Positions 6,340 to 16,319 of a DNA stretch of 64,000 nucleotides are shown in pieces. The stretch is from the NCBI RefSeq assembly GCF_000296695.1, contig NZ_BAFK01000017.1, positions 1 to 64,000 on the forward strand. Reading direction: 5' to 3'. Origin of the DNA: Rheinheimera nanhaiensis E407-8. Lineage in GTDB: Bacteria; Pseudomonadota; Gammaproteobacteria; Enterobacterales; Alteromonadaceae. Below the pieces are notes generated by a model, which saw only the letters and a program-made list of their open reading frames with translations, ran no database searches and was not told the DNA's origin. How positions within the stretch are numbered: the stretch's first letter is position 1; each line of letters starts with the position of its first letter. The position numbers were made by a program, and so were the translations under genes.

Positions 6340-6546
6340 CGGCTATGTCTGGCCTGCTTAACACTAAGCAGGCCAACATTCTCTAAGCTATTGTTTTAGC
6401 TTGCGCTATTATTATGTCTCCTGCTCAATAATCTGCTTACTTTTTTCATTATTTGATTGCCTTAATTTTCTGCAGCAACTACCTTTAGTACTGACCGTTA
6501 TGCAATATTGTGCAGTAATGCCTCGACAGAGACAGGAAGTAGCCTA

Positions 6547-8748
6547 ATGACCAATAAAATAAAAACCGAGCTGACACCACAAGATGATGTAGTGGTGGTA
6601 AAAACCGCGCTAAAAAAATCCACGGCCTCTACGCTGCCACCGTCTTTTGCCAGTGACCGTTACATGTACTTTACCGAACGCGACCTGAACAAAATTCTGA
6701 CAAATTTAGATGCACTGCGTAGCAGCGTGTTTCCGGCGCCTAACCCGGATAATGAAATTCAAAGCCGTAAACAGCAGCATTTTCCATCGGTGTGTTTAAT
6801 TGGCTTGGGCCGCTGCGGTTCAAATATCGCGCTGGATGTGGCTTCACTGGTGTATAACGCGCGCAATTTCTACTTAAATGAATTTAATAACGAAGAAAAG
6901 CAAAACCGCGAGCAGGAATACCGGCCCATGCGCTGGATAAAACGCAGCCTGCATTTAGCCACTGAGCAAGCGATTAAGCCGGTGTTTTTAATTGAACCGC
7001 TGGTGATGTTAGGCGATTTGGACAAAGACATTGAAGGCCGCATTCGTTTTTCCCATAAAGGTGAAAAAAGCGGCTTTTTACATGACTACACCAAAATGAA
7101 AATTATGGATCTGTCTGAAGTGCATGCCGGTGGTGCCGGTAATGCGCCTATTCTGGGCCAATATCTGGCCAAGATTATCCTCAATAAAGACACCCAACGC
7201 TTTGCCAACGCCGATTGGAAGTTTATTCACTCCTACCTTATTGATTCTTGTGGCATTAAAGCTAACCAATCACGGCTGTATTTTTATATTTTCAGCGCCG
7301 GTGGTGGCACTGGCTCCGGGATGGCATCGGAGTTTGGCCTGGCGCAGCAATACGCGTACATGAGTAAAACCTTTGACACCCGGATGATGGCCGAAGATGA
7401 AGAAAACCGCGGTCATTCATTTGTGTTTGAACCTATATTTACCAGCGGTATTTGTATCCTGCCGAACATTTCAGACCATGGTGTTGAGATGTCAGAAGCA
7501 TTGCACATTAACGCCGGGCGCTTACTGTGTAAATATCTGGCCGAAGAGTGGGACTTCTCTTACAACTTTGATAACGAAGACAGCAGCGAGTCCAGCGTAA
7601 TGCACCGCATCCGGCCCTGGAATGCGATGATGCTGATCTCAAACGACATTATGCGCTACGCCGAAGAAACCGATGACGGCGGTATTCAGCATATTGATGT
7701 TAATGCCATGGAGAAGTACGCCAACCAGTACATCTCGCAGCAGATCTTTAATATCTTAACTGCCCAGGCGGTGACCACCGATTACGACGAAAACTATTTC
7801 CGCCGCGCCGGCATTGATATCGGTGAGACTATACGGCTGGATGCCAATGATTTATTTATGAGCCTGGCAGGCCCTGTTGCCGTAGCTTATGCCGAATCGG
7901 TGGTACCGACCGACAATGGCGGTGAAAAGCTTAAATTGTTTGATAAAGGCACGACGGGGCTGAATATCGACGATCTGTTTTTCCGCTCAATTGACTTACC
8001 ACATTTTAATAAGGTAACCCAGGCGATTGAAGGCATCAGCCTGCTGCCTATTGAATCGGGCCGCTACCGCGAAACCTTAGCCAACTATGTGAAAAACGGC
8101 TATAACGCAGGCGAGCTTAAAGATCTGCACTTCTTTAAAAACTGCTCGTCGGTGGTGTCTATCGTGTCGCTACCAAAAGACTATAAATTGTCTTACATGG
8201 ATTTAAACCGGCTGAAGTCCCACTTAAATGCGCTGTTCCCCAACACCACGTTAAAGCGTTATGCGCTGGTCATTGGCGCTTCTGCCAATATTTCACTTAC
8301 TACGCTGATCGTGAAAAGCCCTTGTCTGAGCGACGATTTCTTAACGCTGATTGTGGCCTTTATTAAGCGCTGCTTTGCCAAAGACAATTTCCGCTTTGAT
8401 GAGCAGCTCGATAAAGCCATGCTGGACTTTATCCGCGCCGACGAGTTTGATGAACAGCGGCTGGATGATATGCTGCATGAGTTTGAAAACCCGGCCAAAA
8501 TTCTCGATACCAACTGGTATGCCATTAAGCCGATGTACGAGAAAAAATACCGTGAGCTTATTCACAACAAAGACAAGTTTGTCTCGATTAACGATATTCG
8601 TTTAAGCCGTGACAGTGTGAAAAAGGCCATTAAATACCTGCGGGAAATTTACCGGCATAAAATCAGTAAAACCAAAGTTATATCGCTTAATAATACAGCG
8701 ACAAGCAAACAAAGCAGTAAAACGCCTCCTCAGAATGAGGAAAAGTAG
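6547..8748 (+). CDS. Tubulin/FtsZ-like GTPase-fold protein of unknown function
   Basis: This is a 733-residue protein. Near residues 82-95 it has a Rossmann-type start, CLIGLGRCGSNIALDV, comparable to the FtsZ T1 region. At about 249-259 it has FSAGGGTGSGMAS, an exact match to the tubulin/FtsZ signature [SAG]-G-G-T-G-[SA]-G. A possible T7-like NIDD lies near residue 473. The rest is not recognisable; there is no signal peptide or membrane segment, and the last 30 residues are polar. It is much longer than FtsZ, which fits the poorly studied bacterial tubulin-like (Tubulin_2) proteins. The start is the ATG with AGGAAGT 6 bases upstream. It is monocistronic between ETF-QO and a convergent reductase gene, with no phage genes nearby. 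Function unknown; polymerisation is only possible. Confidence 0.75.
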   Translation: MTNKIKTELTPQDDVVVVKTALKKSTASTLPPSFASDRYMYFTERDLNKILTNLDALRSSVFPAPNPDNEIQSRKQQHFPSVCLIGLGRCGSNIALDVASLVYNARNFYLNEFNNEEKQNREQEYRPMRWIKRSLHLATEQAIKPVFLIEPLVMLGDLDKDIEGRIRFSHKGEKSGFLHDYTKMKIMDLSEVHAGGAGNAPILGQYLAKIILNKDTQRFANADWKFIHSYLIDSCGIKANQSRLYFYIFSAGGGTGSGMASEFGLAQQYAYMSKTFDTRMMAEDEENRGHSFVFEPIFTSGICILPNISDHGVEMSEALHINAGRLLCKYLAEEWDFSYNFDNEDSSESSVMHRIRPWNAMMLISNDIMRYAEETDDGGIQHIDVNAMEKYANQYISQQIFNILTAQAVTTDYDENYFRRAGIDIGETIRLDANDLFMSLAGPVAVAYAESVVPTDNGGEKLKLFDKGTTGLNIDDLFFRSIDLPHFNKVTQAIEGISLLPIESGRYRETLANYVKNGYNAGELKDLHFFKNCSSVVSIVSLPKDYKLSYMDLNRLKSHLNALFPNTTLKRYALVIGASANISLTTLIVKSPCLSDDFLTLIVAFIKRCFAKDNFRFDEQLDKAMLDFIRADEFDEQRLDDMLHEFENPAKILDTNWYAIKPMYEKKYRELIHNKDKFVSINDIRLSRDSVKKAIKYLREIYRHKISKTKVISLNNTATSKQSSKTPPQNEEK

Positions 8749-8776: not shown

Positions 8777-8811
8777 AAAAACAGACCCGCCAGCCGGGTC
8801 TGTTTTTTTAT
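8777..8811. terminator. Bidirectional terminator
   Basis: AAAAACAGACCCG and CGGGTCTGTTTTT form a long stem flanked by A and T runs on either side. It lies between the convergent tubulin-like and aldo/keto reductase genes and can serve both. Confidence 0.85.
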
Positions 8812-12159: not shown

Positions 12160-12235
12160 TGGAGCGAGTAACGAGGTTCGAACTCGTGACCTCGACCTTG
12201 GCAAGGTCGCGCTCTACCAGCTGAGCTATACTCGC
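12160..12235 (-). tRNA. tRNA-Gly (anticodon GCC), copy 2
   Basis: This is a 76-nt gene including an encoded CCA end. The anticodon loop CTTGCCAA gives GCC. The D arm (AGCTCAGCTGGTAGAGC) and T arm (GAGTTCGAACTC) are complete. It is the last of four tRNA genes read leftward and is identical in body to the copy at 12486-12561. Confidence 0.97.
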
Positions 12236-12256
12236 ATAAATCTGGTTAGTGTCTAA

Positions 12257-12343
12257 TGGTGCCCGGGGCCGGACTTGAACCGGCACGGGGTTTCCCCCGA
12301 GGGATTTTAAATCCCTTGTGTCTACCGATTTCACCACCCGGGC
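12257..12343 (-). tRNA. tRNA-Leu (anticodon TAA)
   Basis: This is an 87-nt class II tRNA with a long variable arm and encoded ACCA end. The anticodon loop TTTAAAA gives TAA. It closely resembles E. coli leuZ. The order gly-cys-leu next to pgsA-uvrC is conserved with enterics. Confidence 0.97.
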
Positions 12344-12381
12344 AGACAACTTTTCTGTGTAGCAACGTTTTAGCTATGTTA

Positions 12382-12455
12382 TGGAGGCGGGTCCCGGAGT
12401 CGAACCGAGGTGGACGGATTTGCAATCCGCTGCATGGCCACTCTGCCAACCCGCC
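12382..12455 (-). tRNA. tRNA-Cys (anticodon GCA)
   Basis: This is a 74-nt gene beginning GGCGGGTTGGCAGAG, with loop TTGCAAA giving GCA, T arm GGTTCGACTCC and an encoded TCCA end. Confidence 0.97.
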
Positions 12456-12485
12456 AAACAAGCAATTTATACTCTTTGTAAGAGT

Positions 12486-12561
12486 TGGAGCGAGTAACGA
12501 GGTTCGAACTCGTGACCTCGACCTTGGCAAGGTCGCGCTCTACCAGCTGAGCTATACTCGC
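12486..12561 (-). tRNA. tRNA-Gly (anticodon GCC), copy 1
   Basis: This is a 76-nt gene with encoded CCA, the first of the leftward gly-cys-leu-gly cluster. It lies downstream of pgsA and has the same sequence as the copy at 12160-12235. Confidence 0.97.
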
Positions 12562-12696
12562 ATGCTTTTGGCCATCTGCCTTAACACGAGACGCATTCTA
12601 CTGTTTTAATTGTGTCAGTCAATAATAAATTTTTTCTTTTACAACTGACTGATTAAAATTTGACTGCATTGGTTTAATTAGCAGCAAAAACAGCGA

Positions 12697-15956: not shown

Positions 15957-16047
15957 TGGCGGAGGGAGAGAGATTCGAACTCTCGGTGGGCTATTAACCC
16001 ACGCCGGTTTTCAAGACCGGTGCATTAAACCGCTCTGCCATCCCTCC
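15957..16047 (-). tRNA. tRNA-Ser (anticodon TGA), copy 2
   Basis: This is a 91-nt class II tRNA with encoded GCCA end. The loop CTTGAAAA gives TGA, the variable arm is long, and the T arm is GAGTTCGAATCTC. It is identical to the copy at 16229-16319. Confidence 0.97.
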
Positions 16048-16203
16048 GCGTTACAGGGCGCATATTAAAAACAGCCTGCGGCTTTGTAAAGGGCTTTTTT
16101 GTCAATTTTAACCGTTTGCCTAGTAAATCAACAACAAAGCCAGTATTTAAACAAATTTAACCCGGCAACCCCCTGGCTGCCTGACCCATTTCGCTAAAAA
16201 CAA

Positions 16204-16227
16204 AAAACCACCGCTAGGGTGGTTTTA
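16204..16227 (-). terminator. Terminator between the two tRNA-Ser genes
   Basis: On the minus strand AACCACC, loop CTAGC, GGTGGTT and a T run form a hairpin just downstream of the first tRNA-Ser. The second copy therefore probably has its own promoter. Confidence 0.75.
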
Positions 16228-16228
16228 A

Positions 16229-16319
16229 TGGCGGAGGGAGAGAGATTCGAACTCTCGGTGGGCTATTAACCCACGCCGGTTTTCAAGACCGGTGCATTAA
16301 ACCGCTCTGCCATCCCTCC
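16229..16319 (-). tRNA. tRNA-Ser (anticodon TGA), copy 1
   Basis: This is a 91-nt gene with encoded CCA and the same sequence as 15957-16047. It starts the leftward pair and is followed by its own hairpin terminator. Confidence 0.97.

Follow-up and report, generated by a model that had tools for sequence, protein, structure and literature searches.

A 733-residue tubulin/FtsZ-like protein of Rheinheimera nanhaiensis fits the FtsZl2 family and is encoded by a common, patchily distributed stand-alone gene

We found that a stand-alone gene on the plus strand of the window (the whole stretch of DNA that was analysed, 64,000 nucleotides of contig NZ_BAFK01000017.1 from Rheinheimera nanhaiensis E407-8) encodes a protein that fits FtsZl2, a family known since 2010, rather than a new family; its type member, PFL_1302, was compared by description only. 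The open reading frame and its translation place the gene at 6547..8748 with an ATG start and a product of 733 residues, exactly as given in the preliminary description of this DNA. The novelty implied there does not hold, as the features of the protein fit those of the published family. FtsZl2 goes back to a 2010 study by Makarova and Koonin, who searched for the GGGTG(S/T)G motif and typified the family by PFL_1302 (PMC2875224). Parts of that paper describe the family as confined to Proteobacteria, with no associated genes, no coiled coil, and a C-terminal region of ~ 300 residues without relatives (PMC2875224). The T6, H7, and T7 elements are said there to be conserved, and filaments are predicted, while the related FtsZl1 has a coiled coil and sits in operons with vWA, kinase, and GTPase genes (PMC2875224). 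A 2023 phylogeny leaves Tubulin_2-type FtsZ-like proteins aside, and the term 'FtsZl' is absent from its main text (PMC9871819). Another article considered as an FtsZl2 paper, PMC7327170, concerns the FtsZ L272E mutant instead, and no experimental work on FtsZl2 was recognised among the open-licence papers listed in literature searches. What is new over the 2010 description is the distribution of the gene, the signs of its transfer between orders, its empty sites, the lack of a shared neighbour, and strong purifying selection.

The gene is probably a single cistron. A Shine-Dalgarno-like AGGAAG, read from the sequence, lies at 6534..6539 (plus strand), 7 nt 5' of the ATG at 6547. Minimum-free-energy folding placed one hairpin at 6350..6375 (plus strand), inside the 207-bp gap that follows an upstream ETF-QO/FixC-like gene, and a second at 8778..8806 (plus strand), between the FtsZl2-type gene and a convergent aldo/keto reductase gene. 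The second hairpin is terminator-like, with 12 bp and a T-rich 3' arm; it was absent from the sites listed by a consensus scan. Two consensus promoters were found, against 4.1 expected. The neighbours examined encode Fur, a GNAT acetyltransferase, EtfA/EtfB-like and ETF-QO/FixC-like proteins (labels that combine matches below the NCBIfam cut-offs with our own reading), an aldo/keto reductase, RluF, a DASS transporter, and PgsA. None of these is a partition, phage, or division gene, in agreement with the preliminary description, and neither a defence nor an integrase gene was seen among the neighbours run through family searches. An ordinary ftsZ, after a gene that we labelled ftsA, lies elsewhere in the same genome; its product has 389 residues, so the earlier remark that the window protein is about twice as long as FtsZ is accurate. 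The maximum 19-residue hydropathy of the window protein is 1.49, and therefore no clear membrane span is indicated. The window also contains six tRNA genes on the minus strand, in clusters at 12163-12561 and 15960-16319, and a plus-strand ORF of 117 residues (12256-12609) that overlaps tRNA genes is probably spurious.

The case for a tubulin/FtsZ-type GTP site comes from three loops that lie in the same order as in tubulin. The T1 loop, LIGLGRCGSNI (residues 84-94, 6796..6828, plus strand), is invariant in alignment A1, and its IGLGRCGSN core at residues 85-93 begins 167 residues before GGGTGSG, close to the spacing of about 165 reported earlier. The T4 loop, GGGTGSG (residues 252-258, 7300..7320, plus strand), is invariant in both an 89-row family alignment and an alignment of 20 more diverse rows, and a T3-like loop, HAGGAGNAPILGQY (residues 193-206, 7123..7164, plus strand), is nearly invariant in both. 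IGLGRCGSN is likewise invariant across the 89 rows; in the 20 diverse rows seven of its nine positions show no change and two are nearly invariant. The coding pattern GGGTG[S/T]G has exactly two matches in the 3.99-Mb genome, the FtsZl2-type gene and ftsZ, while a reversed control pattern has none.

These loops were compared with FtsZ by column-permutation tests between a 58-row family profile and a 25-row FtsZ profile (drawn from 30 loci), in which the lowest attainable p value was 0.0033 (300 shuffles). T4 reached this floor in both tests, T1 gave p 0.0066 in one and 0.0033 in another with a chosen window, T3 gave p 0.02 against the FtsZ sequence GAGANPDIGR (chosen window), and T3-T4 together gave p 0.0033. 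Against beta-tubulin the values were 0.01 for T1, 0.0033 for T4, and 0.09 for T3 compared with GAGNNWAKGHY. All of these loop p values are optimistic, since the windows were picked after the motifs had been seen. When the whole protein was scanned against FtsZ, the T4 segment alone stood out, and the FtsZ T1 segment fitted best at residues 195-200 rather than at 84-93. HHalign of segments against FtsZ recovered the T3-T4 region alone (E 0.008, probability 4.8%). Local alignment of the whole GTPase core gave p 0.024 against FtsZ and 0.049 against beta-tubulin (40 shuffles). On these results the protein carries T1 and T4 loops of the tubulin/FtsZ type and probably a T3 loop, and it is likely, judging from sequence, that it binds GTP through them. 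The preliminary description was right in proposing such a site in a stand-alone gene, and the ordinary ftsZ lies elsewhere in the genome.

Family searches pointed in the same direction at lower scores. A search against Pfam Tubulin and Tubulin_2 had been suggested as a check: both models match all 20 diverse members, while the window protein itself falls below their cut-offs (Tubulin 19.4 bits against a cut-off of 33, E 0.0014; Tubulin_2 E 0.016, below the curated cut-off). The matches to the 20 members, obtained in a lax search with E values up to 10, are weak, with best E values of 0.0013 for Tubulin and 0.001 for Tubulin_2; DUF6562 matches 7 of the 20, and its best E of 0.00076 is slightly better than that of either. 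The FtsZ C-domain family was not among the Pfam matches of the window protein, NCBIfam, PADLOC, and PHROGs gave no meaningful match, and PDB sequence searches with the whole protein and its segments returned no FtsZ or tubulin chain. The earlier statement that the protein shows no similarity outside its GTPase core agrees with these searches. AlphaFold2 models were of low confidence both at full length (31 rows; mean pLDDT 32.4, pTM 0.20) and for residues 76-460 (48 rows; mean pLDDT 33.6, pTM 0.31), probably because the input rows differed too little from one another (77-97% identity to the first row). With the low-confidence 76-460 model, no tubulin was found among the best 50 of 57 Foldseek matches (best E 1.9) or among the 50 VIA-align matches listed (best Z 4.1), and we gave these outcomes no weight.

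Beyond T4, we placed two further elements by eye: a candidate helix H7, YANQYISQQIFNILTA (residues 391-406, 7717..7764, plus strand), and a candidate catalytic T7 loop, IRLDANDLFMSLAGP (residues 429-443, 7831..7875, plus strand), with acidic residues D432 and D435. The latter lies just before residues 440-490, where the preliminary description had suggested looking for it. In the 20-row diverse alignment (A3), A392-V409 as well as D432 and D435 are invariant, and the invariant stretches ANQYISQQIFN (392-402) and RLDANDL (430-436) resemble H7 and T7 to us. The candidate H7 is the top ungapped register for tubulin H7 (4.89 vs 4.45 for the next), the candidate T7 does not appear in the top five ungapped placements of tubulin T7, and gapped tests of the two reached no significance. 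Residues 391-443 as an H7-T7 unit and residues 525-600 as an FtsZ-like C-domain both gained no support from permutation against FtsZ (p 0.67 and 0.65). The corresponding H7-T7 and C-domain tests against alpha-tubulin gave p 0.40-0.82, and everything after T4 gave p 0.27 against beta-tubulin. In a whole-protein scan, the best fit of the alpha-tubulin H7-T7 segment started at residue 536 or 549, within the C-terminal region; two of the three gap settings gave p 0.033 and the remaining one 0.25. Neither placement was used as evidence, because this fit conflicts with 391-443 and no choice between them was possible. The C-terminal region itself (residues 456-733, 278 aa; 7912..8745, plus strand) belongs to no known family: none of the Pfam, NCBIfam, PADLOC, PHROGs, or PDB sequence searches gave it a meaningful match. 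Most of it is, like the core, strongly conserved; in the 20-row diverse alignment it has conserved blocks at about 529-611 and 647-704, and its last ~ 20 residues are variable.

Our proposed explanation is that the gene product is an FtsZl2 ortholog, a branch of the FtsZ/tubulin superfamily, that would bind GTP in the manner of tubulin. Subunits might then join head to tail into GTP-dependent filaments, in which an acidic pair contributed by one subunit, for which D432 and D435 are candidates, would complete the site of its neighbour; contact with a cargo or a membrane might be made by the C-terminal region peculiar to the family. We consider this explanation as a whole, including an optional role outside core division, reasonably probable. 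Polymerisation of FtsZl2 is its best hypothesis and the natural guess from the superfamily. The most serious alternative is a tubulin-fold GTPase that does not polymerise and acts as a switch or an enzyme, its own C-terminal region filling the place of the next subunit. Such a protein would account for a T7 loop and an FtsZ/tubulin C-domain that the permutation tests leave unconfirmed, for weak Pfam matches, and for ~ 280 C-terminal residues without known relatives. However, few parts of the protein are as invariant as the candidate H7 and T7 stretches, and parts of the 2010 paper report T6, H7, and T7 in FtsZl2 and predict filaments (PMC2875224), so that we regard a non-polymerising GTPase as unlikely, though well worth keeping in mind.

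The family is common and patchy. A peptide-pattern scan of genome contigs found 511 related encoding stretches, and the best 80 of the 511 are 77-94% identical over the aligned length. The titles of these 80 name, in our reading, gammaproteobacterial groups, and include Rheinheimera, Arsukibacterium, Alkalimonas, Alishewanella, Paraglaciecola, Cellvibrio, and Pseudomonas. Samples at four taxonomic levels, each counting the source genome itself, gave 21 matching genomes out of 31 for the genus, 25 out of 197 for the order (two as fragments only), 2 out of 369 for the class, and 10 out of 398 for the phylum (of which one has a fragmented copy and another a weak match of 24%). The family was also present in 130 of 199 genomes (one copy partial, one split) of a genus that we took to be Pseudomonas because the G611 copy is 92-95% identical to L036 and L041, two loci named as Pseudomonas. 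Fragmented copies aside, each matching genome has one copy. For G611, G836, and G932, all taken as Pseudomonas, the only motif-bearing frames above 200 residues are the FtsZl2-type family and FtsZ, which lends homology to PFL_1302 indirect support; G836 has four more motif matches in frames of 51-189 residues.

Members of 675-695 residues at L088, L100, and L101 lack most of the variable N-terminal extension, from which we place the start of the conserved protein near residue 38; the members at L089, L105, and L107 are shorter too. Four further copies look incomplete or interrupted: that at L109 (G734) is in five pieces with a gap of ~ 1 kb, that at L116 (G1081) consists of two C-terminal fragments, that at L114 (G843) matches profile positions 383-724 only, and that at L115 (G851) is split into two frames near residue 90.

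Comparison with congeners that lack the gene indicates that it comes and goes as a unit. The ETF-QO-like gene is present in all 10 sampled congeners without an FtsZl2-type gene, and an empty site was seen in eight of them, where it is followed by RluF in six (L161-L165, L170) and by the aldo/keto reductase in two (L171, L172). In L167 and L168, no window neighbour lies downstream of the ETF-QO-like gene within the flank examined. L166 and L169 belong to congeners that have a copy, but not at the window's site within the flank examined. Across lineages no common neighbour emerged, and every neighbour cluster is confined to 25 or fewer of the 69 charted loci (of 81, the other 12 having lost the gene in greedy ORF choice); high-GC loci in this chart include spurious ORFs.

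Sequence divergence suggests that the gene has also moved between orders. Identity of the protein to its counterparts in G611, G721, and G482 (taken as Pseudomonas) is 79-81%, compared with 64-65% for SerS and 62-63% for FtsZ, and we read this excess as transfer. For G980, of the same order, the value is 71.9% vs 74% for both SerS and FtsZ, and for G992 it is 64.3% vs 55% for FtsZ. A general claim that the protein is more conserved than FtsZ was dropped, being contradicted by G980 and by G990 (68.8% vs 76%). A 37-row tree, from a quick search and with several long branches, rejects monophyly of the same-order loci (p-AU 4.8e-46), and in it Cellvibrio nests within the Rheinheimera/Paraglaciecola group (SH-aLRT 94). 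The same-order grouping of named loci is our own, presumed from GTDB taxonomy; NCBI places Rheinheimera in Chromatiaceae. Purifying selection on the gene is strong: against the nearest relative dN is 0.037 and dS 1.35, with dS saturated in 8 of 10 pairs. This disfavours the degenerate GTPase that had been offered as one possibility.

The empty sites, the indications of transfer, and the patchiness of the distribution would also suit a gene for defence or stress that spreads on its own as a cassette. We consider this improbable, given that PADLOC returned no match, no defence or integrase gene was seen among the neighbours run through family searches, and within the order the evolutionary rate of the protein is close to those of SerS and FtsZ. 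Gain and loss as a unit could likewise point to a DNA-segregation or phage-derived filament resembling TubZ or PhuZ, stand-alone bacterial tubulin-like genes with a segregation-type role on plasmids and phages. Against this, tblastn searches of 72,556 plasmid records and 50,697 phage records found no match, no relative was confirmed among viral contigs, and there is no constant neighbour that might serve as an adapter, which makes such an origin very improbable. We give hardly any credence to a convergent GTP-site resemblance in another nucleotide-binding Rossmann family: AlphaFold2 gave no confident fold and T4 alone stands out in the whole-protein scan, but T1, T3, and T4 lie in tubulin order, each aligning above chance or nearly so, and all 20 members match both Tubulin and Tubulin_2, vs 7 of 20 for the next family, DUF6562.

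Returning to the FtsZl2 reading, the gain and loss of the gene as one unit, together with its absence from about a third of the sampled species of two genera, make it probable that the function is optional and self-contained rather than part of core division. The family is of interest as being both common and optional. If FtsZl2 polymerises, about two-thirds of the sampled, presumed Pseudomonas species would carry a filament protein besides FtsZ. More tentatively, many Pseudomonas and Rheinheimera could have in FtsZl2 an extra filament system driven by GTP, spread by horizontal transfer of one self-sufficient gene, with a C-terminal domain that resembles neither FtsZ's nor tubulin's and an optional job such as membrane shaping or positioning. 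The gene should be easy to delete in laboratory strains, because many relatives naturally lack it, and the question standing since 2010, whether FtsZl2 makes filaments and why, becomes directly testable.

Compared with known systems, the window protein shares its T1, T3, and T4 GTP-site loops with FtsZ, and differs from it in being nearly twice as long, in having a separate gene, and in that no FtsZ C-domain was detected. With eukaryotic tubulin it shares GGGTGSGM at T4 and a similar T1 (GRCGSN, vs GQCGNQ in beta-tubulin); nothing after T4 aligns above chance at the expected place. Unlike TubZ and PhuZ, it has no plasmid or phage relative that we found and no constant partner gene. Its divergent tubulin-like core, with weak matches of 20 of 20 members to Tubulin_2 (PF13809), recalls FtsZl1, yet no vWA, kinase, or GTPase gene occurs among the window neighbours run through family searches. 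The closest likeness is to FtsZl2, with which it shares the GGGTG(S/T)G and T1 motifs, a C-terminal orphan region of ~ 300 residues, the lack of constant neighbours, and the presence of an ordinary ftsZ in the same genome; from PFL_1302, compared by description only, no difference was found.
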